Assembly (NCBI GenBank): GCA_000143165.1
Contig: CP002084.1
Coordinates: 372,001 to 436,000 of the forward strand
Length of the DNA: 64,000 nt
From: Dehalogenimonas lykanthroporepellens BL-DC-9
Lineage (GTDB): Bacteria > Chloroflexota > Dehalococcoidia > Dehalococcoidales > Dehalococcoidaceae
Direction: 5' to 3'
Part shown: positions 32,315-51,109 of the stretch, piece after piece
How the letters are laid out: every line of letters begins with the position of its first letter
How positions within the stretch are numbered: the first letter of the stretch is position 1
Notes under the pieces: generated by a model
The model's database searches: none
What the model was told of the DNA's origin: nothing
Seen by the model: only the letters and a program-made list of their open reading frames with translations
Translations under genes and position numbers: made by a program

Positions 32315-33433
32315 ATGGCAAATAAAACGGGTAAAAAATTGGCCGCAATTGGCGCTACGGGCCTGTTTCTGAGTTTGATTTTTGTTCTGGCAGGGTGCTC
32401 TCAGGACCTTGACGACCAGGATAAGGGATCGGATGAGGCTACACACGATTCTCTTGGCGCCGAATACGTCGGTTCTGATGCCTGTTTTGACTGTCATCCC
32501 GCGATACATAACGATTTTGTGACGTCCGGCAACCCATGGAAGTTGAAAACTTCAGATGTCGCTCGCAACAATCCTATTCCCATTCCGGCTGGCTATGCCT
32601 GGGATCTTATAAGCTATGTAATCGGCGGCAACACCTGGAAGACTTTGTATGTCGACAATAATGGTTATTTAATTACATCTGCCGGCGGGCGGCCGGGTAA
32701 TAATCAATATAATCTTCTGACCGGAACCTGGTCGAATTATAAACCCGATGAATTGGTGTCTTTCACCTGTGGCGAGTGTCATACCACAGGCTACTCTCCT
32801 GAGGGTAATCAGGGCGGTTTGCCGGGAATCGTCGGTACCTGGGAGTTGGAAGGCGTTCAATGTGAAGCTTGTCACGGCCCGGCCGGCAACCACGTTGAGG
32901 GTAATGGTGAGAAAAAAGAAACCATTGTTATTGATGACAGTGCCGCATTATGCGGAAGATGCCATACCTCCGGCGAAAATCTGAATGTGATACCGGCGGC
33001 CAACGGGTATATTTTAAAAAATGGTCAGTATAATGAGCATCAGGCCTCACCCCATCAATATACCGATTGCGCCAACTGCCACGACCCTCATAAAAAGGGA
33101 GAATTCTCGGTAAAGATTGATTGTGGTGACTGCCATCTCAAGGTGAGAGATGATTTTACCGGTAGTACCATGGATGTCGTCGGAGTCGATTGTGAAGATT
33201 GCCATATGCCCCGGGCTACGCTCTCCGGCCAAAGCCTTGGCCTTTATCAAGGGGATGTCAGAACTCATTTGTTCCGGATAAATACTGATCCGGATGCTTC
33301 GATGTTCACTGATGATGGGAAATTCGCCAAAGACTATGTTACCCTCGATTTCGCCTGTCTGTCGTGCCATCTAAACCGTGACCTTGACTGGGCGGCCGCC
33401 AACGCTGAAGGAATCCACCCGGCAGGTAAATGA
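32315..33433 (+). CDS. Octaheme c-type cytochrome lipoprotein
   Basis: The 372-residue product has a lipoprotein signal (lipobox LAGC near residue 28) and eight CxxCH motifs in order: CFDCH, CGECH, CEACH, CGRCH, CANCH, CGDCH, CEDCH, CLSCH. About 95 residues without heme lie between the first and second motifs (GGNTWKTLYVDNNGYLIT region). It would be anchored on the outer face of the cytoplasmic membrane and carry electrons. Its electron partner is unknown. It begins the operon that encodes the heme-attachment machinery, and its stop overlaps the next gene. Confidence 0.93.
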   Translation: MANKTGKKLAAIGATGLFLSLIFVLAGCSQDLDDQDKGSDEATHDSLGAEYVGSDACFDCHPAIHNDFVTSGNPWKLKTSDVARNNPIPIPAGYAWDLISYVIGGNTWKTLYVDNNGYLITSAGGRPGNNQYNLLTGTWSNYKPDELVSFTCGECHTTGYSPEGNQGGLPGIVGTWELEGVQCEACHGPAGNHVEGNGEKKETIVIDDSAALCGRCHTSGENLNVIPAANGYILKNGQYNEHQASPHQYTDCANCHDPHKKGEFSVKIDCGDCHLKVRDDFTGSTMDVVGVDCEDCHMPRATLSGQSLGLYQGDVRTHLFRINTDPDASMFTDDGKFAKDYVTLDFACLSCHLNRDLDWAAANAEGIHPAGK

Positions 33434-33822
33434 TGATGAAAAGAACCCTGTTTGTAAAGCGCCTGAAACGCACCTTGATTATATTGGCCGTATTTATGGT
33501 AGTCATGGGGCCGGTGACCGTCTGGGTACTGCCTAATATTCAGAACATAATTACCTTTAACGATTTTGACTATACACTGGATTCCGGTATAGTCTCATTA
33601 GCACCTCCAGGACTGGTCCCGTCGCCACCGGCACGCCTGGCTGGAACAGGTGAATCGGATTATGTGAAAACACCTCATTCCCTGGAAGGGCGGATAGGTT
33701 TCTGTTTCGATTGTCACAGCCTTAATGGTAAGATTCCTTCACCGGTAAGTCATCTGGGTAGGCCGCAGGATGACTGTACCGTATGTCATCAGCCAGTGTG
33801 GGTTCTGGCGGACGCCAGTTGA
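33430..33822 (+). CDS. Membrane-anchored diheme cytochrome-like protein
   Basis: The 130-residue product has an N-terminal membrane anchor (residues 13-34) without a cleavage site and two CxxCH motifs (CFDCHS and CTVCHQ) near the C-terminus. It overlaps the octaheme gene by four bases (ATGA), which suggests coupled synthesis. It probably relays electrons between a membrane partner and the octaheme protein; this is inference. No family name was recognised. Confidence 0.85.
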   Translation: MMMKRTLFVKRLKRTLIILAVFMVVMGPVTVWVLPNIQNIITFNDFDYTLDSGIVSLAPPGLVPSPPARLAGTGESDYVKTPHSLEGRIGFCFDCHSLNGKIPSPVSHLGRPQDDCTVCHQPVWVLADAS

Positions 33823-33834
33823 AAGGTGGTGCAG

Positions 33835-34236
33835 ATGGGTAAAAAGAAATTTATAATCGGTGGTATTATCCTGTTTCTGGCGATTGGGTCTCTTGGCTGG
33901 GTAGGTTTTATGAATTCGGCTACGTATTATTATGAGGTAGCTGACTTTCTGGAAAGGCAGGAATTACTGGGTAGCCAGAGCGTTCGCGTCAATGGCACGG
34001 TAGTTCCTGGCTCGGTCAATACCGAAAGCGGGGGGCTGGGCATCAGTTTCACTATCCGGGACGTGAACCTTGGAACCCCCACCATTCCGGTTATCTATCA
34101 GGGGGCGGTGCCCGATACCTTTCAACCAGATACGGATGTAGTTGTCGAAGGCAGGTTTACTTCCGCAGGTGTGTTCGAAGCGACCTCGATTATGACCAAA
34201 TGCGCATCCAAATACGAACCGGCTCTCGAAACTTGA
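33835..34236 (+). CDS. ccmE: Cytochrome c maturation heme chaperone CcmE, CxxxY type
   Basis: The 133-residue product has an N-terminal membrane anchor and the OB-fold of CcmE (VRVNGTVVPGSV ... DVVVEGRF). The heme-binding motif is Cys123-x3-Tyr127 (CASKY) instead of the His-x3-Tyr of proteobacteria. The Cys form is known from archaea and some sulfate reducers. It carries heme from CcmABCD to CcmF. The ATG at 33835 is preferred to a GTG at 33826, because AGGTGGT lies 5 bases upstream of it. Confidence 0.92.
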   Translation: MGKKKFIIGGIILFLAIGSLGWVGFMNSATYYYEVADFLERQELLGSQSVRVNGTVVPGSVNTESGGLGISFTIRDVNLGTPTIPVIYQGAVPDTFQPDTDVVVEGRFTSAGVFEATSIMTKCASKYEPALET

Positions 34237-34252
34237 AACGGGCAAGGCAATA

Positions 34253-36199
34253 ATGGCTGACATCGGATTCATCGCGCTTCTCATTGCGTTTTTGGTTGCT
34301 TTATATTCCTCGGTAGCGTATGTAGTCGGCGGTCGAACTAACAATGCCGCCTGGCTGGCCAGCGCTCGTAATGGTCTCTACGCCGCCTTTGTTCTGGTAA
34401 CCATCGCCGTCGGCGTAATGCTGGTAGCGATAATCACACACCGTTTCGAGATAGAATACGTTGCTCAGTACACCTCCACCGACATGCCCCTGCTCTACCT
34501 GATTTCTACTCTCTGGGCGGGCAATGATGGTTCTCTGCTGTTCTGGGCATGGTTATTGTCTGTTTTTGGAGCGGTCGTCGTCTGGGGCCGGTATCGAGTC
34601 GGCCGTGATTTGGTGCCGTATGCTTCAGCGGTTATTATGGGCACGCTGGCCTTCTTTCTATTACTGATGCTGGTGGTGGCCAATCCTTTCGCCACTTTAC
34701 CTTTCACTCCGGTCGAAGGAAACGGGTTGAACCCCCTACTGGAAAATATCGGTATGGTTATTCATCCACCGACACTTCTGTTCGGGTACGCCGGGTTTAC
34801 CGTTCCGTTCGCTTTCGCTATCGCGGCCCTGGTAAAAGGGAAAAGTGGTGATGAATGGCTGGTTATCTCCCGCCGTTGGGCTCTTATTAGTTGGTTGATA
34901 TTGGGTATCGGGCTGATTATCGGCATGTGGTGGGCCTATGTTGAGCTTGGATGGGGTGGATATTGGGCCTGGGACCCGGTGGAAAATGCTGGGCTGATGC
35001 CGTGGCTTCTGGGTACCGCTTTTCTGCATTCCATCAAGATGCAACGGCGCCGCGGCATGTTCAAAGTATGGAACATGCTCCTGATCATCTTTACCTTTAT
35101 ACTATGCATCTTCGGCACCTTCATGACCCGTAGCGGATTCCTGTCTTCGGTCCATACTTTCGGGGATACCGGACTTGATCCCTTCTTTCTTACGTTCATC
35201 AGCCTGACGATGATATTGTCACTGGGCCTTTTGTTGTATCGAAGCAGGCAATTGCGCAGTGAAAGCGAGATGGAATCCTTTATTTCCCGTGAGAGCACCT
35301 TCCTGCTGACCAACCTGTTGTTTGTCGGAGCGACGATCGCTGTTTTCGTCGGCACCATGTTTCCCGCCATATCGGGTTATTTTGGAGGTTCGGAAGTTAA
35401 TCTGGGAGCCGATTTCTTCAATCAGGTCAACGGCCCCATCTTTCTGGCCATCGTTTGTTTGGCCGGTGTCTGTACGCTAATCGGCTGGCGCAAAGCTTCG
35501 GGTAGCAATTTGATAAAGAACTTCCTGCGGCCTTTGATATTAGCGCTGTTACTGGCTGTTGCATTGTTTGCTTTCGGTGTTCGTGACTTGACTGCGCTGG
35601 TGGCATTCCCATTGGTCGCCTTCGTTTTGGTGACTATTCTCACCGAATGGATTAAGGGAACGGTATCCCGCCAGAAAGTCAAAGGAGAAAATTTCCTGGC
35701 GGCATTCTTCAGGTTAATCTGGTCGAACAAGCCCAGATATGGTGGATATATCGTTCACTTGGGTATTCTGGTGATGACCCTGGGTATTGTCGGTTCTACG
35801 GTATTCGATACCAAGACTTCAACTGTTCTCAGTGAAGGTGATACCGTAACTTTAGAGGAATACAGTTTGACCTTTCAGCAATTGAACTATTACACCACAC
35901 CCAGCCGAGAAGTTATCACTGCCGAAATGACCGTTCAGGTCGACGACCGGAATATCGGCACTATTGTTTCTGAAAAGATATATCACTACAGTTATCAACA
36001 ACCGGTAACGGAAGTCGGTATTATCGGGTCGGCTATTGAAGACCTTTACGTTATCTTTTTGGATTGGGACGAGACAGGAGCCGCCGCTTTCGAAATCCGG
36101 ATTATTCCACTGGTGTTGTGGATCTGGATTGGTGGTATCATTCTGGTTATCGGCGGGACGATCGCTTTCTGGCCCGATCGACGGGCGGTTACCGCCTGA
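34253..36199 (+). CDS. ccmF: Cytochrome c heme lyase subunit CcmF
   Basis: The 648-residue polytopic protein has the WWD heme-handling motif (WGGYWAWDPVENA) around residues 233-245 and about 14-15 membrane helices. Conserved His residues flank this loop. CcmF takes heme from CcmE and joins it to the CxxCH cysteines outside the membrane. It starts 16 bases after ccmE. Confidence 0.95.
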   Translation: MADIGFIALLIAFLVALYSSVAYVVGGRTNNAAWLASARNGLYAAFVLVTIAVGVMLVAIITHRFEIEYVAQYTSTDMPLLYLISTLWAGNDGSLLFWAWLLSVFGAVVVWGRYRVGRDLVPYASAVIMGTLAFFLLLMLVVANPFATLPFTPVEGNGLNPLLENIGMVIHPPTLLFGYAGFTVPFAFAIAALVKGKSGDEWLVISRRWALISWLILGIGLIIGMWWAYVELGWGGYWAWDPVENAGLMPWLLGTAFLHSIKMQRRRGMFKVWNMLLIIFTFILCIFGTFMTRSGFLSSVHTFGDTGLDPFFLTFISLTMILSLGLLLYRSRQLRSESEMESFISRESTFLLTNLLFVGATIAVFVGTMFPAISGYFGGSEVNLGADFFNQVNGPIFLAIVCLAGVCTLIGWRKASGSNLIKNFLRPLILALLLAVALFAFGVRDLTALVAFPLVAFVLVTILTEWIKGTVSRQKVKGENFLAAFFRLIWSNKPRYGGYIVHLGILVMTLGIVGSTVFDTKTSTVLSEGDTVTLEEYSLTFQQLNYYTTPSREVITAEMTVQVDDRNIGTIVSEKIYHYSYQQPVTEVGIIGSAIEDLYVIFLDWDETGAAAFEIRIIPLVLWIWIGGIILVIGGTIAFWPDRRAVTA

Positions 36200-36221
36200 T
36201 TTCGCTTTGCAGGAGGGGAAG

Positions 36222-36650
36222 ATGGTTATAGCCCTGGCGGTTCTGATGACATTAGGGGCTTTCATAGCGATAGTCTATCCGTTTGTTGCTGGTTCAATCA
36301 GACAGCCGGTCATAGCAGGTGATACGGACTTGTTCGAGGCTAATTATCAACGCGACCATATCTACGCTCAACTGAAGGAACTGGAAAATGATTACGCTTC
36401 GGGGACGCTGAGCCGAGAGGATTATGAGCGCCTTGAAGCCCGTTATCGTAACCGGGCGGTGGCGATTCTCCGGGAAATTGATGACATTCAAACTGATTCG
36501 CCTGCCGGTGATGATGAAGAAGATATCGAAGCACAGATAGCCGGACTGCGAGCCAATAAAAAAACTGAAATGTTTTGCGCCTATTGTGGAGCCCGAAGGC
36601 AGAGCGAAGGGATCTTTTGTCCGGACTGCGGTCAGAAGTTCACTCGTTAA
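36222..36650 (+). CDS. CcmI-like membrane protein with C-terminal zinc ribbon
   Basis: The 142-residue product has one N-terminal membrane helix, a CcmI/CycH-like helical segment (LKELENDYASGTLSREDYERLEARY) at about 48-72, and a zinc ribbon (CAYCGARR...CPDCGQKF) at the end. The TPR domain of full CcmI, which binds apocytochrome, is missing. CAGGAGGGG precedes the ATG. Its position between ccmF and ccmA suggests a role in apocytochrome handling. No ccmG or ccmH gene is seen. Confidence 0.75.
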   Translation: MVIALAVLMTLGAFIAIVYPFVAGSIRQPVIAGDTDLFEANYQRDHIYAQLKELENDYASGTLSREDYERLEARYRNRAVAILREIDDIQTDSPAGDDEEDIEAQIAGLRANKKTEMFCAYCGARRQSEGIFCPDCGQKFTR

Positions 36651-36663
36651 GGAGGCATAATAA

Positions 36664-37806
36664 GTGCGAAGCAGAGCGTTAATTCTGATGCTGTTGTTGA
36701 TCGGTCTGATGACGTCCGGGCACCCGGTTTTCGGTGAAGAGAACGGGACGATTTCCGGGAAAGTGGTTAACGGTTCGCCGGGGGCGGAGATAGATGAAGT
36801 CCCTGCGGTAACTCTGGAAGCATACTCTCCTGGCAATCCGCAACCGGTGGTTATTCAGGGGGTAACGGATGAAGAAGGTAATTATCGATTCACCTCGCTG
36901 GATACGGACAGTAATATCTCATACTATATCGCGGCTGAATATAAAGGGGCGATTTATTACAGTGACGAGCTGAATTATTCAGGGGAATCCCCCGACATCG
37001 AGTCCGATATTACTGTGTACGAGCAGACTGAGTCCGATACTGACATAAGCATTGCATTGTCACATACCATTATTACCACCGAATCCGAAGGAATCGTGGT
37101 AACTGAGTTTTTCATTATCGAAAATACCGGTGACTATTCCTTTATCGGCTCTGGGGCAGTAATCGGGACCTCTTCGCTGACCATGCTGTTTCCGATGCCG
37201 GATATTGCCCAGGGGATCGAAGTCGGGGGGGATATCTCCGGGCAGGTCACGTTCACTAATCAGGGGCTGGTATATTCCGGGGCTATTCGCCCCGGTTTTA
37301 TGACTGCCACATATTCATATCATCTGCATGAGTTGGGTTCCAAGTACTCTCTCCAGAGAAATATTGCCTATCCACAGGCTAGATATGAATTGCTGGTTCA
37401 AGGCATCGACAATTTGAGTGCTGATCCCCTTACTCGACAAGACCCGCTTGTAATTGAGAATGTCTCGTATCAGTACTATACCGCTACCGCAATACCCGCC
37501 GGGCAGATAGTCGAAATAGAATTGTCTTTGGGCACAGATGGTACTCAAATCATTCTGGTGGTCGGTGGAGCTTTGATTTTGGCAATTGCCGGTTTTATTC
37601 TGATTTCACGACAAAACAGGAAAGGGCAGGCGGTAGTTCGGGACTCCGGGGATGACTACACGTCTCTGTTGAATCGTATTGCCCGTCTGGATGATCAATA
37701 CGAGGCTGGTGACATCGCTGAGACAGACTATCAAGCGAAGCGAGATGCTTTGAAAAAGGCCGCATTAAACTCAAGAAAACGTAGCGCGTCGGGAGAGGAG
37801 CAGTAG
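36664..37806 (+). CDS. Exported carboxypeptidase-regulatory-like domain protein with a membrane anchor
   Basis: The 380-residue product has a signal peptide (residues 1-24) and a CarboxypepD_reg-like beta domain (GTISGKVVNGS ... GVTDEEGNYRFTSL). A long extracytoplasmic region, a C-terminal membrane helix (IILVVGGALILAIAGFILI) and a cytosolic SHOCT-like helix (RLDDQYEAGDIAETDYQAK) follow. The start is GTG at 36664 with AAGGAGG upstream. It sits between the CcmI-like gene and ccmA, 3 bases before the latter, so it may assist cytochrome assembly. The function is unknown. Confidence 0.75.
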   Translation: MRSRALILMLLLIGLMTSGHPVFGEENGTISGKVVNGSPGAEIDEVPAVTLEAYSPGNPQPVVIQGVTDEEGNYRFTSLDTDSNISYYIAAEYKGAIYYSDELNYSGESPDIESDITVYEQTESDTDISIALSHTIITTESEGIVVTEFFIIENTGDYSFIGSGAVIGTSSLTMLFPMPDIAQGIEVGGDISGQVTFTNQGLVYSGAIRPGFMTATYSYHLHELGSKYSLQRNIAYPQARYELLVQGIDNLSADPLTRQDPLVIENVSYQYYTATAIPAGQIVEIELSLGTDGTQIILVVGGALILAIAGFILISRQNRKGQAVVRDSGDDYTSLLNRIARLDDQYEAGDIAETDYQAKRDALKKAALNSRKRSASGEEQ

Positions 37807-37809
37807 TAA

Positions 37810-38532
37810 TTGCAGTCCGATGATTTGGGGCACTCGGCCATTTTGGTTAGAAGCCTTATTAAGACATTCAATCACCGCCCGGCCTTGAAGGGGATTGATC
37901 TGGAAATTGCCCGGGGAGAGAAGGTTGTCGTTTTTGGGCCCAACGGAGCAGGCAAGACTACTTTGTTGAAGATTCTTTCCACGGTTATGAAACCCAGTTC
38001 AGGGAAGGTTTTCATGCAAGGACTCGATCTGAAGACTGAAGCCGATGCTATTCGACGGCAGATAGGAGTGGTGTTTCACCACAGTTTCTTGTACCCTAAT
38101 TTAACCGCCAGGGAAAATCTGGAGTTCTACGCCAGGTTATACGACATTGATGATTTGGAGCCAAGAGTAGTTGAAAAAGCGGGTTTGGTTGGGATGACCC
38201 GGCGGTTGAACGACAGGGTAGATACTTTTTCCCGTGGCATGCAGCAACGAGTTACCATTGCCCGATCCCTTCTTCATAATCCATCGATTTTATTGATGGA
38301 TGAACCTGAAACCGGCCTGGATCAGCAATCCATAAGCGTTTTGTGGAATATATTACAGGAGCAGGACAGAACGATTTTACTGACAACCCATAACTTCGAA
38401 CGGGGCATGGAAATTGCTGACCGCGTTATTATGCTGAATAGAGGCAAGACAGTATTCGATAGTCCTAAGAGTAACCTGAACGCTTCATCCTGCCGGGAGA
38501 CGTATTATCAATTGACAGGTTTTAAGGTATGA
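37810..38532 (+). CDS. ccmA: Heme exporter ATP-binding protein CcmA
   Basis: The 240-residue ATPase has Walker A GPNGAGKTT, signature FSRGMQQRV, Walker B LLMDEPETGLD and the switch His in TTHNF. With CcmB and CcmC it releases heme-loaded CcmE. The start is read as TTG at 37810 with GGAG upstream. It overlaps ccmB. Confidence 0.92.
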   Translation: MQSDDLGHSAILVRSLIKTFNHRPALKGIDLEIARGEKVVVFGPNGAGKTTLLKILSTVMKPSSGKVFMQGLDLKTEADAIRRQIGVVFHHSFLYPNLTARENLEFYARLYDIDDLEPRVVEKAGLVGMTRRLNDRVDTFSRGMQQRVTIARSLLHNPSILLMDEPETGLDQQSISVLWNILQEQDRTILLTTHNFERGMEIADRVIMLNRGKTVFDSPKSNLNASSCRETYYQLTGFKV

Positions 38533-39203
38533 ATGCGTCTTTGAAAAAGATTTGGGCGGTTTTGTACAAAGATATTATCACTGAAGTCCGTACGCGCGAA
38601 ATAATAGTCTCGGTACTGGTATTCTCACTGCTGGTCATCATCGTCTTCAGTTTCGCTTTCGGTGTAAACCGCGCGGTCATTGAAGCTGTCGCCCCCGGCA
38701 TACTCTGGGTAGCTTTCGCTTTCGCCGGTGTATTGGCTCTCAACCGTCAGTTCATACCTGAAAAAGAAAACGGATGTCTGGAAGGAATATTGGCGTCACC
38801 TATCAGCCGGGAGGCGCTATTCTTCGGGAAAATGTTGTCAACGACGTTGTTTCTGGTTGCGGTAGAAGTCATAATCATACCTGTTTTTGCCCTGTTATTT
38901 GATGTCGCGGTCATTGACCCGAAAATTATCCTGGTAACGATAATGGGAACCATCGGTTTTGCCGCTGTTGGGACCTTGTTTTCCGCCTTAGCTGTCAATA
39001 CCCGGGCCAGGGAAATGGTTTTACCTGTGCTTTTTCTTCCGGTCGTGGTTCCTGTAATAATTGCCGCCGTAAAAGCTTCGGAGTCAGCCCTTTCGGGGGG
39101 CGACTGGGGAGATATATCATCCTGGCTGTTGATCATTGGGGCGTTCGACATTATCTTCATAACGGTACCCTATCTTATATTCAACTATATTGTGGAGGAG
39201 TAA
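38529..39203 (+). CDS. ccmB: Heme exporter membrane protein CcmB
   Basis: The 224-residue protein has six membrane helices and family landmarks (YKDIITEVRTREI near the start, EKENGCLEGILASPISREALFFGK). It forms the channel subunit with CcmA. ATGA overlaps the ccmA stop. Confidence 0.92.
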   Translation: MNASLKKIWAVLYKDIITEVRTREIIVSVLVFSLLVIIVFSFAFGVNRAVIEAVAPGILWVAFAFAGVLALNRQFIPEKENGCLEGILASPISREALFFGKMLSTTLFLVAVEVIIIPVFALLFDVAVIDPKIILVTIMGTIGFAAVGTLFSALAVNTRAREMVLPVLFLPVVVPVIIAAVKASESALSGGDWGDISSWLLIIGAFDIIFITVPYLIFNYIVEE

Positions 39204-39207
39204 GCGT

Positions 39208-39909
39208 ATGCGGATATTGGGGAGTAAGGTGAGTTATGGGTTGCTGGGACTGACTGCGGTTGCTGTCCTGGTAAGTCTGGTCATGATTTTCATTGTAGTA
39301 CCTACCGAGGCGACCATGGGCATAATCCAACGTATCTTTTACTATCACGTTCCGGTAGCCTGGGTCGCTTTCCTCGCCTTTTTCGTAGTACTCATCGCCA
39401 GTATCCTGTATCTGTGGAAACGCAAAAGGAAGTGGGATGTTATCGCCTCTGCTTCAGCCGAACTCGGTGTCATATTTACCTCTTTGGTACTTATAACCGG
39501 GTCAATCTGGGCGAAGCCGATTTGGGGTGTCTGGTGGACATGGGACGCTAGACTGACGACTTCACTAGTTTTATGGCTGATATATGTAGCGTACCTTATG
39601 GTTCGTGCCTCTATCGGGGAAGAAGAAAAAGCGGCTCGTTTCGCGGCGGTGGTGGGAATAATCGGTTTTGTTGATGTTCCCATTGTAGCTTTGGCCATCC
39701 AGTTATGGGGAACCCAGCACCCTGGTGCGGTAATATTCGAAGGTGGACTGGCTCCGGTAATGCTGGCGACACTATTGATAAGTCTTCTCGCTGTAACCAG
39801 TCTTTACGCTCTACTACTGGTACAAAGAGTTTCCCTGAGGAATGATGAGCTAAGGCTGGACGATATCAAACGTCGAATTGAAATGATCAGGGAGGAAGGC
39901 AATGGATAA
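39208..39909 (+). CDS. ccmC: Heme exporter protein CcmC
   Basis: The 233-residue protein has six helices and the tryptophan-rich motif WGVWWTWDARLT, which binds heme outside the membrane. Flanking His residues (YYHVPVAW, TQHPG) are the likely heme ligands. It loads heme onto CcmE. The ATG at 39208 has GGAGGAG 7 bases upstream. Confidence 0.95.
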   Translation: MRILGSKVSYGLLGLTAVAVLVSLVMIFIVVPTEATMGIIQRIFYYHVPVAWVAFLAFFVVLIASILYLWKRKRKWDVIASASAELGVIFTSLVLITGSIWAKPIWGVWWTWDARLTTSLVLWLIYVAYLMVRASIGEEEKAARFAAVVGIIGFVDVPIVALAIQLWGTQHPGAVIFEGGLAPVMLATLLISLLAVTSLYALLLVQRVSLRNDELRLDDIKRRIEMIREEGNG

Positions 39910-40069: not shown

Positions 40070-40152
40070 TAGTAACGCACCTGTTACTATATAAAAAGTA
40101 TTAGTACTAATTGCAATAAATCCTTGACAGTACTAATCACCATAAGTATACT
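40070..40152 (+). promoter_or_regulatory. Promoter and candidate operators of the hexaheme cytochrome gene
   Basis: TTGACA (40124-40129), 17 bases, TATACT (40147-40152) is a near-ideal promoter. Upstream lie the inverted repeat TAGTAAC-N6-GTTACTA (40070-40089) and the palindrome TTAGTACTAA (40101-40110). AGTACTAAT occurs at 40103-40111 and again at 40129-40137, beginning on the last base of the -35 box. These repeats are likely regulator sites. Confidence 0.7.
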
Positions 40153-40242: not shown

Positions 40243-41289
40243 ATGCCAAGAAAAACTCGGGGAGGGGTGGTGACCACATTACTTGGGGCATTGATGTTAC
40301 TGGGATTGTCCCTGGTGTTTGTGGGATGTCAAGGTGAGCAAGGGGTCGCGGGACCGCAAGGGCCTGCTGGACCGCAAGGGCCCCCTGGCGAACCAGGAGA
40401 AGACGCTACGGTAGCCTGTATTGATTGTCATAATGAGACCAACCTCATTACCTCCAAAAGATCGCAGTACAGTTATTCCGTACATGCCAACAGCGCGCCT
40501 CAAACTGCAACGCAAACCGTTTATGACTATGCGGGCGCGCGCGACAACTGTACGGCCTGCCATTCCGGGAGAGGTTTCGTGACCTGGCAGGAACAGGGAG
40601 GCTCTACAAGCGCAGTGGAAGCGGCAGTCAACAACACTCAGATCGACTGCCGGGCTTGCCACGAAATTCATACGACCTATTCCGGAGATGACTTTAAGCT
40701 ACGCACGATAGATCCGGTCGAATTGCTGGTAGACTCCAGCAAGGTCTATGATGCCGGTAGCAGTAATCTGTGTGCTTCATGTCATCAGGCAAGGTCAACC
40801 GCTCCGCAACCTGGCGGCGGTACCACCTCAATCAGTTCATCTCATTACGGCCCTCACCATGGCCCCCAAGCTACGATGTTGCTGAGTGTCAATGGTTATG
40901 GGATGGTTGATGACCCCAATCCACACGCCACTCAAGTGGACGGAGGTTGTGTCACCTGTCATATGGCAGATGATAAGGCGACTCAAGCCGGCGGTCATAC
41001 CTTTAATGCCTCGCTGGCTGGTTGTCAAAGCTGTCATGACGGTTTAACTACCTTCGACCGTCATGGTGTTCAGACTGAGACCAAGGCCCTTTTGGCTCAG
41101 CTTGAAGCGTTGCTGGAACAGCAAGGCGTTATGCATGATGGTCATCCGGTTACAGGCCAGACGTTTACCGAAGATCAGGTAGGCGCTTACTGGAACTGGA
41201 TATACATCTCTGAGGACGGGAGTCTAGGTGTTCACAACTCATACTATGTAAGAGAATTGTTGAAGAAATCAATAGCCGACCTCAGTTAG
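40243..41289 (+). CDS. Hexaheme c-type cytochrome lipoprotein with collagen-like linker
   Basis: The 348-residue product has a lipoprotein signal (lipobox VGC at about residue 28), then eight Gly-x-y triplets (GEQGVAGPQGPAGPQGPPGE), then six CxxCH motifs: CIDCH, CTACH, CRACH, CASCH, CVTCH, CQSCH. His-rich segments such as SSSHYGPHHGPQ may supply distal heme ligands. The ATG at 40243 follows AAAGGAG. The collagen-like stretch could extend the heme domain away from the membrane. It lies just ahead of the molybdopterin oxidoreductase genes and is the likely electron partner of that complex. Confidence 0.9.
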   Translation: MPRKTRGGVVTTLLGALMLLGLSLVFVGCQGEQGVAGPQGPAGPQGPPGEPGEDATVACIDCHNETNLITSKRSQYSYSVHANSAPQTATQTVYDYAGARDNCTACHSGRGFVTWQEQGGSTSAVEAAVNNTQIDCRACHEIHTTYSGDDFKLRTIDPVELLVDSSKVYDAGSSNLCASCHQARSTAPQPGGGTTSISSSHYGPHHGPQATMLLSVNGYGMVDDPNPHATQVDGGCVTCHMADDKATQAGGHTFNASLAGCQSCHDGLTTFDRHGVQTETKALLAQLEALLEQQGVMHDGHPVTGQTFTEDQVGAYWNWIYISEDGSLGVHNSYYVRELLKKSIADLS

Positions 41290-41439: not shown

Positions 41440-44439
41440 ATGTCCAGGGATATCAACCGCAGAGACTTTCTCAAACTGAGTGGCGGAACTGTAGGGTTGT
41501 TCGCAACCGCAGGACTATTTCGCGGCCCTCTGGAGCCACTGGTCGACAGTCATATCAAACAGGTAGAAATTCGCTGGGGTAAAGAAACGACTACGGTCTG
41601 TCCGTACTGTTCCGGTGGTTGTGGATTGGTCTGCTATACAGAAGATGATGTATTGGTCAGGGTTGAAGGCGATACGGCTCACCCCATCAATCATGGTTCG
41701 GTTTGCCCCAAGGGGGGGGCTTTGGCGCAGATTCGTAATGGCGTAGAAAACAAGAGCATTAATAGTTCGCGATTGCAACAGGTTATGTATCGGGCTCCCG
41801 GGGCAGAAAACTGGGAAATCAAAGATTGGGATTTTGCCTTGGAGCGGATTTCCCGAAGAATTAAGGACACCAGAGACCATTATTGGATGGCTGTCAATAA
41901 TAATGGGAGGCCAGTCAATAGAACTTCAGCTATTGCGTCCCTGGGCGGCGCAACAATAAATAATGAAGAATGCTACTTGCTTTCCAAGATGTTACGCGCT
42001 TTGGGTATTGTCAAGATACAACACCAATCTATCGATGGTCCATTGTCCGGGTCTGTTGGCTTGAATTCTTCTTTAGGTTGCGGAGCCATGACAAATCATT
42101 GGACTGATCTATCCAATTCGGATTGTATCTTGTTTATCGGAGCCAATATAGCGGAGAATCACCCTCCGGTGTTTTTGCATGCCAAAGCTGCTCAGGATAA
42201 AGGGGCGACAATTATTGATATAGACCCCCGTTTCACTCGAACATCGGCTAAAGCCGATATTCATTGCTCTTTAAGGCCGGGAACCGACCTGGCATTATTG
42301 GGAGGTCTGGCTAGGTATGTGCTTGACGATATCGTAGCCCATCCTGACGAATATAATATCGAATATATTACAAAATATACTGATGCTTCTTTCCTGCTCC
42401 GCTCGGAATTTGCTGGCCCGGTTGAATTGAACGGCTTGTTTTCTGGATTTAACACCAATACCGGAGACTATCGAAAAGACAGTTGGAAATTTCAAACAGA
42501 TTCATCGGGTGATCCAATCTCCGACATGTCGTTGCAGAACCCGGCGTGTGTATTTCAACATTTGAAGCGTCATTTTTCTCGATATGATACCCAAATCGTC
42601 AGCGAGATAACAGGTGTGTCAAAAGAGTTATTGGAACAGGTTTACAGGGCTTACGCATCCACCGGAGCCACGGAAAAAGCAGGTTCAGTAACAGCTTCAT
42701 CAGGGGTTGTGCAACAGGTTAATGGAACGCAGACAGTCAGAGCTATCACGATTGTTCAATTGTTACTTGGCAACATAGGGGTAGCTGGTGGTGGTGTGAA
42801 TGTATTTAACCCTGAATTCAACGCTCAGGGGGCATTGGATCACGGGTTGAATTCAGGGCTATTACCCGGCTATCTAGCCGCTCCGGATGATTTGGATGAC
42901 TCTATCTCGACTTATGTTACTCGACATGGTACTCCTTCAGGACTGTACTTCAATTCAGGGCATTCGGCTGATATTATCGGTTTACTTAAATCGTGGTACG
43001 GTGATGGCGCCAGCTTGGAGAATGACTTCAATTTCGGTCTCTTGCCAAAGGTAGATCAAGATGACAGTGGTTCGTTGACCGAGATTATTTCATCGGTCGA
43101 TTCCGGAATGATCAAGGGTATGCTCATCTGGGGTGAAAACCCTTCGGTATCACTGGCTTCTTCGGAGAAAGTCAGTCGCTCTTTTGACAAGCTTGAATGG
43201 ATGGTTGTAACCGATCTCTTTGAAACCGAAACTGCGGCTTTCTGGAAAAGGCCGGGTGTAAATCCAGGGAGTATCAATACAGAGGTTATTCTGTTACCGT
43301 CAGCCGCTTCTTTCGAGAAAGAAGGAAGCGCAACCAATGCCGGCCGCTGGATGCAATGGAGCAATCAGGCATTGGAACCTTTGGGTGATTCCAGACCTGA
43401 GTTGTGGATTATCCAGAATCTTATGTCACGGTTGAAAAGGCTGTACGCTGACGAAGGCGGGCCAAATGAGCTAGCCATTAACGATGCTAGCTGGGACAGC
43501 GTAACAGCTGAATCGGTTGCTAAGGAAATAAATGGACGGTTTATCTCCGATGGGACGTTGATAGATGGAACCCAAACACTTGCTGATAACGGTTCGGTCG
43601 CTTGCGGAAATCGATTATATAAAGGGAGCATGGTCCCCGGTATGAATATGGCATCCAGGCGGGATATCGACCCCGGGGGATTCATAATTAATCTATATCA
43701 CCGCTGGGCTTGGAGCTGGCCGAACAACACCAGAGTTTTGCACAATGGAGCTTCGATAAACGCTAGCGGAAAGGCGTTTAATATCAGCCGTACGGTAATA
43801 GAATGGGACCAGGACAATCACAGATGGATAGGTGATGTGCCTCACGGTTTCACCGATCATAAACCTGGTAGTAAGCCGTTCATCGGAAATGAGCATGGAT
43901 TGGGGAAGATGTTTGCGGGTTCACTAAAGGATGGCCCTTTCCCTGAGTATTATGAGCCATGGGAAAGTCCGGCCATAAATTTAATATCGGCGAGGCAGAA
44001 TAGTCCTTTGCTTAAAACAAATGGCTCTGTTAAAGGAGAGTTCGATGAGTTTCCCATTATTGGTACTACTTTTACTGTCGGAGAGCATTGGGGATCCGGG
44101 AAAACCACTCGCAGAATTCCCTGGCTGTTGGAGATGTCTCCCGAACCATTCATAGAAATCGGGCAACAGCTGGCGGACGTAAAAGGGATTAAAAGTGGGG
44201 ACTTGGTTGTTGTTCGGACAGCCCGAGGACAAATCAAGATGAAAGCTCTGGTCACATTGCGCCTGAAACAGATTCGAGTTCTGAATAAAGATTTACACCA
44301 TATTGCTGCCCCCTCCCATTGGGGGTTTTTAGGGCCTGGGCAAAACGACAGCGCTCAGACGCTGACAGCCATGGTGGCAGACGTGAACTCTGCAGTGGCC
44401 GGTTCCAAAGTTTTCCTGTGTGATGTTACAAGGGGGTAA
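41440..44439 (+). CDS. Tat-exported molybdopterin oxidoreductase, catalytic subunit (FdnG-like)
   Basis: The 999-residue product has a Tat signal (NRRDFLKLSGG), a [4Fe-4S] site (Cys54, Cys57, Cys61, Cys89; then K91), and the DMSO-reductase-family fold. The closest visible match is formate dehydrogenase N: GAMTNHW and IDPRFTRTSAKAD are shared. At the position of the Mo ligand (Sec-His-Gly-Pro in FdnG) this protein has Ile198-Asp199-Gly-Pro. Neither Cys nor Sec is present, and no in-frame TGA occurs there. Asp199 or Ser197 could serve as ligand, or none. The substrate is therefore open. It would act outside the membrane with the next two subunits. Confidence 0.9.
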   Translation: MSRDINRRDFLKLSGGTVGLFATAGLFRGPLEPLVDSHIKQVEIRWGKETTTVCPYCSGGCGLVCYTEDDVLVRVEGDTAHPINHGSVCPKGGALAQIRNGVENKSINSSRLQQVMYRAPGAENWEIKDWDFALERISRRIKDTRDHYWMAVNNNGRPVNRTSAIASLGGATINNEECYLLSKMLRALGIVKIQHQSIDGPLSGSVGLNSSLGCGAMTNHWTDLSNSDCILFIGANIAENHPPVFLHAKAAQDKGATIIDIDPRFTRTSAKADIHCSLRPGTDLALLGGLARYVLDDIVAHPDEYNIEYITKYTDASFLLRSEFAGPVELNGLFSGFNTNTGDYRKDSWKFQTDSSGDPISDMSLQNPACVFQHLKRHFSRYDTQIVSEITGVSKELLEQVYRAYASTGATEKAGSVTASSGVVQQVNGTQTVRAITIVQLLLGNIGVAGGGVNVFNPEFNAQGALDHGLNSGLLPGYLAAPDDLDDSISTYVTRHGTPSGLYFNSGHSADIIGLLKSWYGDGASLENDFNFGLLPKVDQDDSGSLTEIISSVDSGMIKGMLIWGENPSVSLASSEKVSRSFDKLEWMVVTDLFETETAAFWKRPGVNPGSINTEVILLPSAASFEKEGSATNAGRWMQWSNQALEPLGDSRPELWIIQNLMSRLKRLYADEGGPNELAINDASWDSVTAESVAKEINGRFISDGTLIDGTQTLADNGSVACGNRLYKGSMVPGMNMASRRDIDPGGFIINLYHRWAWSWPNNTRVLHNGASINASGKAFNISRTVIEWDQDNHRWIGDVPHGFTDHKPGSKPFIGNEHGLGKMFAGSLKDGPFPEYYEPWESPAINLISARQNSPLLKTNGSVKGEFDEFPIIGTTFTVGEHWGSGKTTRRIPWLLEMSPEPFIEIGQQLADVKGIKSGDLVVVRTARGQIKMKALVTLRLKQIRVLNKDLHHIAAPSHWGFLGPGQNDSAQTLTAMVADVNSAVAGSKVFLCDVTRG

Positions 44440-44442
44440 CAA

Positions 44443-45240
44443 ATGGTCGAACTAGCTGTATTGGTTGATATCACCCGTTGTATAGGTTGTCGGGCATGCC
44501 AGATGTCCTGTAAGCAGTGGTGGAGGTTGGAACCTCATGAAACCAGTTTCAGTCCAACGATTACGAATCCGCCGAAAAGAAATGAGCATAACTACATTAA
44601 TGTCGAATATCATGAAATTATCGATGATACGGGCAACCTGACCTGGAACTTCGTACATAAGCGTTGCTTTCATTGTGTTGACCCGGTTTGTGTTTCGGTG
44701 TGCCCGGTGGCTGCTATGAGAAAAACACCGGACGGTCCAGTAGTCTGGGATGAAGCCAGGTGTATGGGATGTCGTTATTGCGCCCAGGCTTGTCCTTTTC
44801 GTATACCGAATTATCAATACCACAGCACTTGGCCTGAGGTCAGCAAATGCTGGTTTTGCTGGGATAGGATTGCTGAAGGCCTGCAACCAGCCTGCTCCAA
44901 AGCTTGTCCTCCCAAAGCAATTGAGTTCGGTGAGAGAGGAGCAGTATTAGCCGAAGCTCATCGCAGAATTGAAATGCACCCGGACAGGTATGTGGATTAT
45001 GTGTATGGTGAAAAAGAAGCCGGAGGAACATCACTGTTTTACATATCAGGTGTTTCTTTCGATAAACTTGGATTCAACATGGATGTACCGCATGAGCCGT
45101 TGTCCGAATTGACCTGGGACTTCCTGAGTAAGATACCTATGGAAGCCGCCGCAATAATCGGTTCCTTGACCGCAATTTGGTACATCCGGGGAAAAGCGCT
45201 AAAGGAATTTCCGGAGAAAGATGAGGCTGGGCATGAGTAG
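44443..45240 (+). CDS. Iron-sulfur subunit of the molybdopterin oxidoreductase (FdnH/NrfC-like)
   Basis: The 265-residue product has four Cys groups for [4Fe-4S] clusters: CIGCRACQMSC, CFHCVDPVCVSVC, CMGCRYCAQAC and CWFCWDR...CSKAC. A C-terminal membrane helix (EAAAIIGSLTAIWYI), as in FdnH, anchors it. It relays electrons between the catalytic subunit and the membrane subunit. It starts 3 bases after the catalytic gene and overlaps the next by eight bases. Confidence 0.94.
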   Translation: MVELAVLVDITRCIGCRACQMSCKQWWRLEPHETSFSPTITNPPKRNEHNYINVEYHEIIDDTGNLTWNFVHKRCFHCVDPVCVSVCPVAAMRKTPDGPVVWDEARCMGCRYCAQACPFRIPNYQYHSTWPEVSKCWFCWDRIAEGLQPACSKACPPKAIEFGERGAVLAEAHRRIEMHPDRYVDYVYGEKEAGGTSLFYISGVSFDKLGFNMDVPHEPLSELTWDFLSKIPMEAAAIIGSLTAIWYIRGKALKEFPEKDEAGHE

Positions 45241-46444
45241 TCATAATCCACTATACACCCGGTGGGCTCCGTCCAGCGATACTCCTTTGTTCACTCCATG
45301 GAGCGTATTGCTTTTGCTTCTGGCGCTTGGAGCGCTGGCGGTGGCGGCTGGAAAATTTATTTTCGGAATGCACGCTGTTGACAACTTATCCAATGACTGG
45401 CCATGGGGTATCTGGGTTTCATTCAATGTTATGGGTGGCGTAGCGTTGAGTGCGGGCGGCTTTGTGACTGCCGGGCTCGTGTATATTTTTAGGATAAAAA
45501 AATATTGGCCGGTGATCAGACCCGCGGTATTCACCGCATTTATCGGATATGTAATAGCCGGTGCCGGCATCGCAATCGATATCGGTCGTACTCCGCGAAT
45601 TGTCCACCCGCTCTGGATGTGGCAACCAGAATCGGTGATGTTTGAAGTAGCCGTGTGTATGACCGTTTATACAGCAGTGCTGTTTTTGGAGTTCAGTCCC
45701 CTGATTGCGGAACGTTTTCAGATGCGCAAGGTTTTGAAATTTCTTCATGCCATTATGATACCTTTGGTTATACTTGGAATCACCCTGTCTTTCATGCACC
45801 AGTCTTCCCTCGGAGCGGTTCATTTGATAATGCCGCATTTGATGCATCCTTTATGGTACAGTGAATGGATGGGGTACATGTTCTTTGTGTCCGCGATGGC
45901 ATTGGGTTTATGTGTGGTGATTATTGAGTCCACCGTCAGTTCCAAAGTGTTCAAAAAGGGACTGCGCCTTGATTTACTTGGAGGTTTGGGCAAAGGGGCG
46001 GGCTGGATACTGCTAGTTTACCTGGGTTTCAGGATATGGGACTTAAATACTACCGGGCATCTGAACAGTTTCACAACGAGTGACGCTTTTGGATGGTTGT
46101 TCGCTGTAGAGATAGGATTACTTGGTTTGGCTATGCTGATGCTTTTCCTGCCGGGGGTGCGGCGGTCTTCCGGGTGGTTGTTTACTGCTTCTTTGTTAGT
46201 TCTGGTGGGGGTCGTCTTGAACAGGATGAATACGGATCTGATAGCTATGGCTGTGTCTCGCACCACGGCATATATTCCGGCGTGGACGGAAGTGCTCTTC
46301 TCCATTGGGCTAGTCGCCGGCGCCATGTTCATATTCCGCGTCGTAGCCAAGTATCTTCCATTGTTCGAAGGACGTGGTTATGGGCTGGCCAAGGATGAAG
46401 AAGCGGCCAGTTTTACCGCGATATCTGAGGCGGAGAGCACCTAA
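45233..46444 (+). CDS. NrfD/HybB-type integral membrane subunit
   Basis: The 403-residue product has about ten membrane helices and matches the HybB/PsrC/NrfD group (WPWGIWVSFNVMGGVALSAGGF, IDIGRTPRIVHPLWMWQPES). These subunits exchange electrons with the menaquinone pool and bind no heme. It completes a three-subunit quinone-linked molybdoenzyme. The ATG at 45233 overlaps the previous stop (ATGAGTAG). It converges with the stress-protein gene, with 18 bases between. Confidence 0.93.
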   Translation: MSSHNPLYTRWAPSSDTPLFTPWSVLLLLLALGALAVAAGKFIFGMHAVDNLSNDWPWGIWVSFNVMGGVALSAGGFVTAGLVYIFRIKKYWPVIRPAVFTAFIGYVIAGAGIAIDIGRTPRIVHPLWMWQPESVMFEVAVCMTVYTAVLFLEFSPLIAERFQMRKVLKFLHAIMIPLVILGITLSFMHQSSLGAVHLIMPHLMHPLWYSEWMGYMFFVSAMALGLCVVIIESTVSSKVFKKGLRLDLLGGLGKGAGWILLVYLGFRIWDLNTTGHLNSFTTSDAFGWLFAVEIGLLGLAMLMLFLPGVRRSSGWLFTASLLVLVGVVLNRMNTDLIAMAVSRTTAYIPAWTEVLFSIGLVAGAMFIFRVVAKYLPLFEGRGYGLAKDEEAASFTAISEAEST

Positions 46445-48159: not shown

Positions 48160-48714
48160 AAGGTTTGGTGTCCGAATTTGACATCCGACCTCAGTTTTTG
48201 TCCAGTCGCAATTTACGGACGCTCCATTTTTTATCAGCCACACAGGTCGGTTGGTTTTTCGGAGGACTTTTAGAGCGACGGATCCCAGAACCCAACGGTT
48301 TAATCCAGAGCGTCCATGTGTAGCCATCAGAATAAAATCGCTGTCAACAGATTCCGAATATTCCACAATGCCCTCATGAGCTCGGCCACTCACCATTACC
48401 GCGGTTGCTTTTATCGGTTTCCCTGTATCAGCCGCTTGCTGTATAAGTTTGTTAGCGGTTGATTCTACATACGCCTCATGCATTGGGCAGTACTGGTCTT
48501 CCGGCTCACACACATAAAGGCAGGTTATTTCCAGATCAAGGCGATGAGCCAATTCGCGTGAAAATGGAAAGATAATTTCTCCTACCCGAGAGCCGTCCAG
48601 GGGAAGTAGCAACCGTTTATACATGGACATGTCTCAAATCCTCCATGTTAGTAGTAAGACTACCGGCCAATTGTAACCTGTGGCGGTATCCGGGGTCAAG
48701 AAAAAATATAGCAA

Positions 48715-48738
48715 AAGTGCTAGTACTTATGATATACT
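48715..48738 (+). promoter_or_regulatory. Candidate promoter/operator of the heme operon
   Basis: AAGTGCTAGTACTT (48715-48728) is a near-perfect 14-bp palindrome (one mismatched pair). It lies just upstream of a -10-like TATACT (48733-48738), in the place of the -35/-10 spacer. No good -35 box is visible, so an activator or spacer-binding regulator is possible. It shares the TAGTACT core with the sites upstream of the hexaheme cytochrome. Confidence 0.5.
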
Positions 48739-48788
48739 ATTGGCGTCTTCTCCAGGGTTCAGCTAATAATAACAGCATGGAGAGTTTC

Positions 48789-49967
48789 ATGATTTCAATT
48801 TCTCGTTTGCTATGTGACAACATCGGGCCCCAGGATTCTTTGCGTTACAAATCTCCTTCCCTTCATCCAGGCCAAAGTTACAAGGTGCAATCTCCTATTG
48901 TGGTTTGGAACTGCACTCGTGCGTGTAACCTGCATTGTATTCATTGTTATGCATCAGCGACCTCGAACTGCTCACCTGAAGAGGTAACTACAGGTCAGGC
49001 CAAGGAATTCATTAAGGGTCTGGCAGAATTCGGGGTGCCGGTTCTACTTTTTTCCGGAGGAGAGCCGTTACTTCGTGATGATCTGTTCGAGCTGGCGTCA
49101 TTCGCTCGGGATAATGGATTGCGAGTGGCTTTGTCAACCAATGGAACATTGATAGACCAGACAACGGCTAGGAAAATTCAACTAGCTGGTTTTGCTGAGG
49201 TTGGTATCAGCCTTGACGGAATCGGTGAAAACAATGATAGGTTCCGAGTCAAGCAAGGCGCTTTCGATGACGCACTACAGGGTATTCGACACTGTGTCGA
49301 GTTGAATCAAAGGGTTTCCCTCAGGTTAACTATTACCAGCCATAACTTCAAAGAAATACCGGCTATATTGGATCTGATAGAAGAAGAGCGTATACCGCGT
49401 GTCTGTTTTTACCATCTAGCCTATACAGGAAGAGGGGATAAGATGGTCAACGATGATCTGTCTCACGAGCAGATTCGGGCGACGGTGGATCTTATATGCG
49501 ACAGAACCGTCGAATGGCACAGCCGAGGGATAAAAAAAGAAATCCTGACCGTCGATAATGCCGCCGATGGTGTCTATCTTTATTTGAGAACACGTGACCA
49601 GCACCCGGATAGGGCGGAAAAAATCTACTCATTACTCAAGCAAAATGGTGGGAACAATTCCGGAATCAAGATTGGGGCCGTAGATGACCGGGGTAATGTC
49701 CATCCGGATCAGTTTACCTGGCACCATACATTCGGCAATATCAAGGAACGGAAATTCGGCGATATCTGGACCGATGTCTCCCATCCATTGATGGCGGGCT
49801 TGAAGAACAGGAAACCACGCTTGTCCGGAAAAAGATGCCCGCAATGTCGTTATCTGGAGGTATGTAACGGGAATCTTCGGGTTCGGGCCGAAGCTGTCAC
49901 CGGCGATTATTGGCATGATGACCCGGCTTGCTATTTGACTGATCAGGAAATAGGGATAGCCACATGA
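48789..49967 (+). CDS. ahbC: Radical SAM 12,18-didecarboxysiroheme deacetylase AhbC
   Basis: The 392-residue product opens with the AhbC-type head (MISISRLLCDN ... DSLRY) and has the radical SAM motif C46-x3-C50-x2-C53 (CNLHCIHC) and FSGGEPLLR. The C-terminal CPQCRYLEVCNGNLRVRAE is a second Cys cluster. In the alternative pathway it removes the acetate side chains of didecarboxysiroheme to give Fe-coproporphyrin III. The ATG at 48789 (GGAG 6 bases upstream) is preferred over upstream in-frame starts. It is the first gene of the heme operon and overlaps ahbD. Confidence 0.9.
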   Translation: MISISRLLCDNIGPQDSLRYKSPSLHPGQSYKVQSPIVVWNCTRACNLHCIHCYASATSNCSPEEVTTGQAKEFIKGLAEFGVPVLLFSGGEPLLRDDLFELASFARDNGLRVALSTNGTLIDQTTARKIQLAGFAEVGISLDGIGENNDRFRVKQGAFDDALQGIRHCVELNQRVSLRLTITSHNFKEIPAILDLIEEERIPRVCFYHLAYTGRGDKMVNDDLSHEQIRATVDLICDRTVEWHSRGIKKEILTVDNAADGVYLYLRTRDQHPDRAEKIYSLLKQNGGNNSGIKIGAVDDRGNVHPDQFTWHHTFGNIKERKFGDIWTDVSHPLMAGLKNRKPRLSGKRCPQCRYLEVCNGNLRVRAEAVTGDYWHDDPACYLTDQEIGIAT

Positions 49968-51109
49968 GCTTAAAGTCGGAAACATCAATGGTATTAACCC
50001 CCCGACTTCAATTGGTCGCCTGGGAATTGACCCGCAGCTGTAATCTGCTGTGTGAACATTGTCGGGCTTCCGCGTTGAAAGGGCCGTACCCCGGGGAGCT
50101 TAACTCTGAAGAATGCTTTCGGCTTATCGATCAGATACATCAAATAGGTCAGCCGATTTTAATTTTGACCGGAGGAGAGCCGTTGCTCCGGGAAGATATT
50201 TTTGAGATTGCCGGATACGCGTCGAAAAAAGGTTTCCGGGTGGTAATGGGTACTAACGGTACCCTTATCGACTCTGAAACAGCGCGCAGGATGAAAGAAG
50301 CTTCTGTTGCCAGAATCGGTGTCGGTCTGGATTTTCCGAATGCCGAATTGCAGGATCAATTCAGGGGGCACCCGGGTGCGTTCGATGCCGCAATAAAGGG
50401 GATAAACAATGCCCGGGAAGCCGGCATCGGTATACAAATCAACGCTACCATTACCAGGAAGAACGTAGATTTTCTTGATGAAATGCTGGAACTGGCCAAG
50501 AATCTCGGTGCTGTGGCTTTTCATCCGTTCATGCTGGTACCCACAGGGCGTGGCAAAGGGTTGGCTGAGGTAGAATTGTCGCCTGAGGAATATGAAAGTA
50601 TTTTGAACTGGATATATGATAAGCAACAGCAGTTGGGTGACCGTGTTTTCTTTAAACCTACCGATGCTCCTCACTATCTTAGAATAGTGCGGCAGAGAGA
50701 AAAACAATCACGCAGTGAGGCAACTACTGAAGATAACCATTATGATAGTTCCTGTCCGGCTCATCAGCAATCTCACGGTCATGGGATAAACTCCTTGAGC
50801 CGGGGTTGTCTGGCCGGTACGGGTTTTTGTTTCATATCTCATCGGGGAGAGGTTCAGGGCTGTGGTTATCTGGACGTCGTCGCTGGTAATATCAGAGACA
50901 ACACTTTTGCCGAAGTTTGGAATGATTCCCAATTATTCTGTGACCTGAGGGACTTGAGATTATATAAGGGCAAATGCGGGGAGTGTGAATACAAGAAGTT
51001 ATGCGGTGGTTGTCGCGCTCGTGCGTACGAAGCCACCGGAGATTATCTTGAAGCAGAGCCTTATTGTGTTCACCAACCTGTAAAAAAGGTGATGAATCAG
51101 GTCCATTGA
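49964..51109 (+). CDS. ahbD: Radical SAM heme synthase AhbD (Fe-coproporphyrin III decarboxylase)
   Basis: The 381-residue product has C26-x3-C30-x2-C33 (CNLLCEHC), LTGGEPLLRED, and SPASM-type Cys (GCLAGTGFCFIS, CGECEYKKLCGGCRARAY). It oxidatively decarboxylates two propionates of Fe-coproporphyrin III to vinyls, giving heme. It overlaps ahbC by four bases (ATGA). With AhbC and the AhbA-AhbB fusion it completes the siroheme-to-heme branch. Confidence 0.9.
   Translation: MSLKSETSMVLTPRLQLVAWELTRSCNLLCEHCRASALKGPYPGELNSEECFRLIDQIHQIGQPILILTGGEPLLREDIFEIAGYASKKGFRVVMGTNGTLIDSETARRMKEASVARIGVGLDFPNAELQDQFRGHPGAFDAAIKGINNAREAGIGIQINATITRKNVDFLDEMLELAKNLGAVAFHPFMLVPTGRGKGLAEVELSPEEYESILNWIYDKQQQLGDRVFFKPTDAPHYLRIVRQREKQSRSEATTEDNHYDSSCPAHQQSHGHGINSLSRGCLAGTGFCFISHRGEVQGCGYLDVVAGNIRDNTFAEVWNDSQLFCDLRDLRLYKGKCGECEYKKLCGGCRARAYEATGDYLEAEPYCVHQPVKKVMNQVH

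Follow-up and report, generated by a model that had tools for sequence, protein, structure and literature searches.

An FdnG/OmeA paralog without the active-site residues of formate dehydrogenase, probably a non-catalytic subunit of a cytochrome-linked membrane complex in Dehalogenimonas lykanthroporepellens BL-DC-9

One gene of D. lykanthroporepellens BL-DC-9 encodes a 999-residue large subunit of the FdnG/OmeA type from which the formate-oxidising residues have been lost. With somewhat better than even confidence, this inactive paralog is regarded as the large subunit, without catalytic function, of a membrane complex that is Qrc-like and linked to cytochromes. Taken together, the lost residues and the operon context indicate that the protein probably serves for wiring or as a scaffold and not as an enzyme. 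The stretch of DNA analysed (the window, 64,000 nucleotides) corresponds to positions 372001-436000 of one contig of 1,686,510 bp. Its relevant features are listed in Table 1.

Table 1. Features of the locus, in window coordinates
Feature	Position	Strand	Remarks
Octaheme lipoprotein-like c-type cytochrome	32315..33433	+	8 CXXCH
Small membrane protein	33430..33822	+	2 CXXCH
Cytochrome c maturation cluster	33826..39909	+	CcmE, CcmF, two unassigned, CcmA, CcmB, CcmC; upstream of the operon
Sigma-70-like promoter	40124..40152	+	TTGACA-17-TATACT; 11/12 consensus match only; precedes the cytochrome gene
Lipoprotein-like c-type cytochrome	40243..41289	+	6 CXXCH, collagen-like linker; 84% identity to the strain W protein
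FdnG/OmeA-type large subunit	41440..44439	+	999 aa; twin-arginine signal RRDFLKL; without Sec/Cys, His and Arg of formate dehydrogenase
Cys54, Cys57, Cys61, Cys89 and Lys91	41599..41712	+	all retained; the four Cys are the [4Fe-4S] (FS0) ligands, with Lys next to them
Codons of Ser197-Ile198-Asp199	42028..42036	+	align with Ala-Arg-(Val/Ile/Leu) just before Sec
Codons GGT CCA (Gly200-Pro201)	42037..42042	+	occupy the Sec (metal ligand) and catalytic His columns
Asn457	42808..42810	+	catalytic Arg column; Arg in 107/114 homologs
Four-cluster ferredoxin-like subunit	44443..45240	+	16 Cys, C-terminal hydrophobic stretch
NrfD/OmeB-type membrane subunit	45221..46444	+	19/21 published OmeB half-channel and Q-site residues kept
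Two radical SAM proteins (NirJ1/AhbC-like, AhbD-like)	48645..51109	+	siroheme-dependent heme pathway type; both below curated cut-offs; downstream of the operon

A profile search identified the 999-residue protein as an FdnG homolog, with 904 bits against a cut-off of 814 for TIGR01553. Automated annotation based on this curated cut-off leads to formate dehydrogenase-N, with the catalytic residues missing. Among solved structures, D. vulgaris FdhA and E. coli FdnG come closest (35-41% identity), and the AlphaFold2 model (mean pLDDT 81, pTM 0.84) matched both over the full length in a fold search (TM 0.88-0.89, Z 49-54). The sequence also contains GxNxAENHP, DPRFTRTS and RPGTD, motifs usually linked to the pterin dinucleotide. 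Thus, the pterin cofactor may remain bound and some chemistry may be left. At the second FS0 position, Asp replaces Cys (CPYD) in 33 of the 114 homologs (L002, L006-L036 and others), among them the Sec enzyme of Dehalogenimonas and OmeA of Dehalococcoides; the protein described here and its ortholog in strain W still have Cys. A second paralog in the genome (G000:C1:29714-32713) is a normal FdnG whose Sec codon is an in-frame TGA. Dehly_0443, cited as the formate dehydrogenase-like subunit of D. lykanthroporepellens with a quoted identity of 56% (PMC5736913), may be the gene at 41440-44439, judged from the order of the locus tags (a DnaA-like gene opens the genome), but the quoted identity fits the Sec paralog better than the 999-residue protein.

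Positions 42028-42036 read TCT ATC GAT for Ser197-Ile198-Asp199, and GGT CCA for Gly200-Pro201 comes next. An initial annotation of this DNA had named these three residues and had recognized that neither Cys nor Sec is found at the ligand position of this FdnG homolog. Both observations are correct, the Sec column being occupied by Gly200. The placement of Ile198-Asp199 at Sec-His, however, was two residues off. MAFFT aligned the loop gap-free, which puts Gly200 at the position of Sec and Pro201 at that of the His, and the same register was obtained with a profile HMM built from 47 Sec enzymes only. From His195-Gln196 to GAMTNHW, 18 residues are counted in the 999-residue protein, the ortholog, OmeA and the Sec enzymes alike. 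Matching the 'GP' to the 'GP' of FdnG costs two compensating gaps of two residues; the BLOSUM sum is -0.7 for the gap-free register and +16 for the best shifted one before gap penalties of about 24-26 points. This 'GP' is SQ in the strain W ortholog and therefore not conserved, and among the 114 homologs of the family the catalytic His is followed by Gly in 58 and by Ser in 48. The HMM posterior in the loop was about 0.8 for the 999-residue protein and maximal for the ortholog and Dehalococcoides OmeA, so that its local register is less certain than that of the other two. AlphaFold2 models of the protein and of a Sec relative (L071) place a strand at 190-194 and 180-185 and the end of a helix at 212 and 202, respectively. 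The offset stays at 10, and in the 999-residue protein the helix is interrupted right at Gly200-Pro201. These models agree with the gap-free register, but they are not fully independent support, because their input alignments were already in that register. On the grounds of equal loop length, the ortholog, the HMM alignment and the secondary structure of the models, the shifted register was rejected. Cys214, named at the outset as a possible alternative metal ligand, was rejected as well; it aligns with a nearly invariant Arg 14 residues past the Sec column.

Comparison with 114 aligned homologs revealed how unusual these residues are. At the Sec column, 104 sequences have an in-frame TGA, four Cys, four Ser, one Asp and one Pro, and the His that is present in 106 of them is indeed replaced, as had been proposed, though by Pro201. 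The Arg located two residues before Sec in 112 homologs corresponds to Ile198, and the Gly following the catalytic Arg to Pro458. In the loop 197-206, all seven nearly invariant positions are changed; outside it, this holds for 32 of the 170 such positions (p = 1.6e-5 by Fisher's test, calculated once the loop had been seen and for a loop picked because of the finding). Among the 177 positions nearly invariant in Sec enzymes, 138 are kept in the 999-residue protein, 150 in its ortholog, 148 in Dehalococcoides OmeA and 176 in the Sec FdnG of the same genome. Because none of Sec, His and Arg is left, it is very unlikely that the protein oxidises formate in the manner of FdnG, in agreement with the initial annotation. 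The latter's suggestion of Asp199 as metal ligand is not supported, since this residue lies outside the ligand column and is Asn in the ortholog. Likewise, the proposal of a distinct catalytic branch finds no support, given the selective loss of pocket residues and ligand, His and Arg columns that differ between the orthologs, and the operon context indicates an electron-transfer or scaffold role instead.

Other sequences without Sec in this column were L037 (Asp), L076 (Pro) and several Cys forms. L037 (6030-9104, G013) is an OmeA-like protein with Ser at the His column and an adjacent OmeB-like gene in an OmeA-like operon. L076 (7995-10940), an FdnG-like protein of a Spirochaete with Asn at the His column, probably represents, judged by these residues, another inactive member outside the Chloroflexota. 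An operon like that of the 999-residue protein was not found with L037, L076 or the Cys forms.

One ortholog, 58% identical, was detected in "Ca. Dehalogenimonas loeffleri" W. Further members of this Gly/Ser clade were not present among the best loci read in samples of up to 156 order, 393 class and 400 phylum genomes. In the ortholog, the ligand, His and Arg columns hold Ser, Gln and Ser in place of the Gly, Pro and Asn of BL-DC-9, and no ligand chemistry is therefore conserved. The RefSeq record of BL-DC-9 is suppressed with a contamination warning (PMC13390414). Assembly error or contamination at the locus was ruled out by strain W, in which the whole cluster, including the neighbouring genes and the operon order, is collinear. 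Between the two strains, the Fe-S protein, NrfD and the hexaheme cytochrome show 84-89% identity and the Sec FdnG 89%, and dN is 0.35 for the large subunit versus 0.07-0.11 for the compared genes. The divergence of the large subunit is thus some three to five times that of its operon partners. Synonymous sites were saturated; dN/dS was dropped and dN and identities were used alone. As the frame nevertheless remained intact in both genomes (999-1000 codons), constraint on the gene is relaxed, yet real. Judged from these sequences, the relaxation is specific to the large subunit among the operon genes; elsewhere in the cluster, CcmA (60% identity) and one unassigned protein (46%) are also fast. 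The orthologs are most alike (identity 0.80-0.84) over residues 1-100, which comprise the signal and the FS0 region.

The genes for the hexaheme cytochrome, the inactive FdnG, the Fe-S protein and NrfD likely form one operon in that order, with intergenic gaps of 150, 3 and -20 nt. The Fe-S protein is 49% identical to the FdnH of the same genome and 89% to its strain W ortholog. NrfD shows 45% identity over 376 aa to the OmeB of the same genome and 46% over 377 aa to Dehalococcoides OmeB, and two OmeB residues named in PMC10772276 are altered, D68 to Asn and E92 to Lys. At the corresponding site in strain W, no promoter match like that in Table 1 was detected. For the hexaheme cytochrome, no sequence match was obtained in the PDB, and the octaheme cytochrome gave a weak match to PDB 6i5b (E 1e-7); from its sequence, the latter is possibly a surface cytochrome. 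Among eight Dehalogenimonas genomes, CcmF was found only in BL-DC-9 and strain W, and AhbD-type proteins are present in five. Close homologs of the hexaheme cytochrome were likewise limited, within the genus, to BL-DC-9 and strain W. Downstream of the operon, a universal stress protein gene (46463-48630) is split by an IS3-type transposase insertion (46985-48159); it is intact in strain W (301 aa; L034 14846-15751). Searches for quinone synthesis in the genus yielded no match to MqnA/D, MenD only below its cut-off, and one UbiA-family protein. Dehalogenimonas is reported to make no quinones (PMC5736913).

A mixture-model tree built without the active-site and FS0 columns grouped the 999-residue protein and its ortholog with Dehalococcoides OmeA and L037 (support 99/98). 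In AU tests, a clade of the pair and the Dehalogenimonas Sec enzymes was rejected (p = 0.008), as was a clade joining OmeA and L037 to these Sec enzymes (p = 0.010). Branches of the 999-residue protein (0.71) and L037 (1.15) are long, which leaves some doubt, and long-branch attraction may be the source of the grouping. If the tree holds, Sec was lost once, before Dehalococcoides and Dehalogenimonas split, and two Dehalogenimonas species retain both forms. The likeness to a Dehalococcoides formate dehydrogenase-like subunit pointed out in the initial annotation is therefore apt and probably reflects kinship; this subunit, OmeA, carries Ser and is reported to be inactive as formate dehydrogenase (PMC5736913, PMC10772276). 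In another Dehalogenimonas genome (G064; 1,725,728 bp), no full FdnG match was obtained, although the fdn operon is stated to be conserved in all genomes analysed in PMC13390414.

Different explanations for these observations have to be considered. The protein could still be a molybdo- or tungstoenzyme acting on another substrate, for example an oxyanion or a sulfur compound, with a metal bound through an oxygen ligand or lacking a protein ligand as in arsenite oxidase. Such an enzyme would fit the full formate dehydrogenase fold, the retained FS0 cysteines and pterin-type motifs, the Ser in the ligand column of strain W, and the Fe-S/NrfD module, a partner of many reductases. We consider it unlikely, since ligand, His and Arg columns are unlike between orthologs sharing 58% of their residues, selective pocket loss and a divergence far above that of the partners are not what a substrate-specific enzyme would show, and its closest kin is the inactive OmeA (PMC5736913). 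A clearly lower probability is assigned to an alternative OmeA that serves reductive dehalogenases in the organohalide respiration complex, with the cytochrome genes as mere neighbours. The hexaheme cytochrome keeps its place in the gene order in both genomes, CcmF and this cytochrome are confined within the genus to the two genomes carrying the inactive FdnG, and for the dehalogenase-linked role the genome has another OmeA/FdnG, the Sec form, paired with an OmeB of its own, in line with a report on the genus (PMC13390414); these findings outweigh the tree grouping with Dehalococcoides OmeA and the 45-49% identity of the Fe-S protein and NrfD to FdnH and OmeB. Least probable, and hardly to be expected, is a dispensable paralog heading for decay. 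The amino-acid divergence relative to the operon partners and the change of 39 of the 177 nearly invariant positions would agree with decay, yet the frame is intact in both genomes despite saturated synonymous sites, the signal peptide and FS0 region are strongly conserved, and the operon is retained in two species.

According to the preferred reading, a non-catalytic subunit of a cytochrome-linked complex, the inactive FdnG would be an exported structural core or scaffold and could act as a relay through its [4Fe-4S] cluster (FS0). We infer that it forms a membrane complex with the hexaheme cytochrome c, the four-cluster Fe-S protein and NrfD; inclusion of the cytochrome is suggested by gene order, with 150 nt separating its gene from that of the inactive FdnG. 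Electrons, in whichever direction, would be exchanged between multiheme cytochromes and the Fe-S chain adjoining NrfD, and NrfD could couple their transfer to proton movement, as proposed for OmeB. The lipoprotein-like nature of the multiheme cytochromes suggests that electron exchange might be extracellular. A more far-reaching version, which is tentative and in our view rather doubtful, sees in some Dehalogenimonas a relative of the organohalide respiration complex that is quinone-independent and linked to cytochrome c. An inactive FdnG/OmeA subunit would form the core of this complex, and electrons would pass to or from an extracellular partner via surface multiheme cytochromes.

To our knowledge, Dehalococcoides is described as cytochrome-free. 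Nonetheless, two Dehalogenimonas species possess a full c-type cytochrome system, and if the quinone-independent version were true, cytochrome-based respiration would exist in this lineage, in which Dehalogenimonas is described without alternative acceptor pathways. A survey of Dehalogenimonas respiratory modules reported no such pathways and left BL-DC-9 out of the pangenome (PMC13390414). The kind of protein is known, as OmeA is already a Ser-bearing inactive FdnG-like subunit (PMC5736913, PMC10772276); a prior description of a cytochrome-linked FdnG paralog was not found in the literature examined. OmeA raises the question of what a ligand-less formate dehydrogenase-like subunit does in respiration, and this locus is a second such case. 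Its neighbour is a hexaheme cytochrome, not a dehalogenase, and with the Sec paralog in the same cell the two roles are directly comparable. In addition, automated annotation will give an inactive protein the name of an enzyme.

Compared to known systems, the protein resembles FdnG of E. coli (1KQF) and FdhA of D. vulgaris in fold, length, Tat signal and FS0, but it lacks Sec/Cys, His and Arg, and NrfD replaces the cytochrome b subunit. With the Sec FdnG of the same genome it shares the parallel gene order large subunit-Fe-S-NrfD; the Sec gene, in contrast, has all three catalytic residues, lies away from cytochromes and is followed in strain W by an FdhE-like gene. Dehalococcoides mccartyi OmeA (DET0187/CbdbA195 type), the sister in the tree, is likewise an FdnG-like, Tat-exported protein with neither Sec nor Cys in the ligand column, with His and Arg lost and with an NrfD-type partner, OmeB. 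OmeA, however, has Ser in the ligand column, an Asp in place of one FS0 Cys (CPFD) and lacks a cytochrome partner, whereas the 999-residue protein has Gly and four FS0 Cys, and its operon supplies both an Fe-S subunit of its own and a hexaheme cytochrome. The Qrc complex of sulfate reducers (QrcABCD) combines the same kinds of subunits, a hexaheme cytochrome c (QrcA, six hemes; PMC8076601), an inactive molybdo-type subunit, an Fe-S protein and an NrfD protein (PMC8076601, PMC10772276). Differences are again apparent. The models for QrcB, QrcC and QrcD scored far below their cut-offs (63/440, 66/400 and 143/570 bits), QrcB is described without bis-MGD and Fe-S cluster (PMC10772276) while the four FS0 Cys are kept here, and quinones are reported absent in Dehalogenimonas (PMC5736913). 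Because the make-up is that of Qrc, the Qrc models failed by a wide margin, the sequences stand nearer to FDH-N/OmeA subunits and no quinones are reported, a convergent complex is proposed, in which a Qrc-like architecture would have been reached from OmeA/FDH-N parts.
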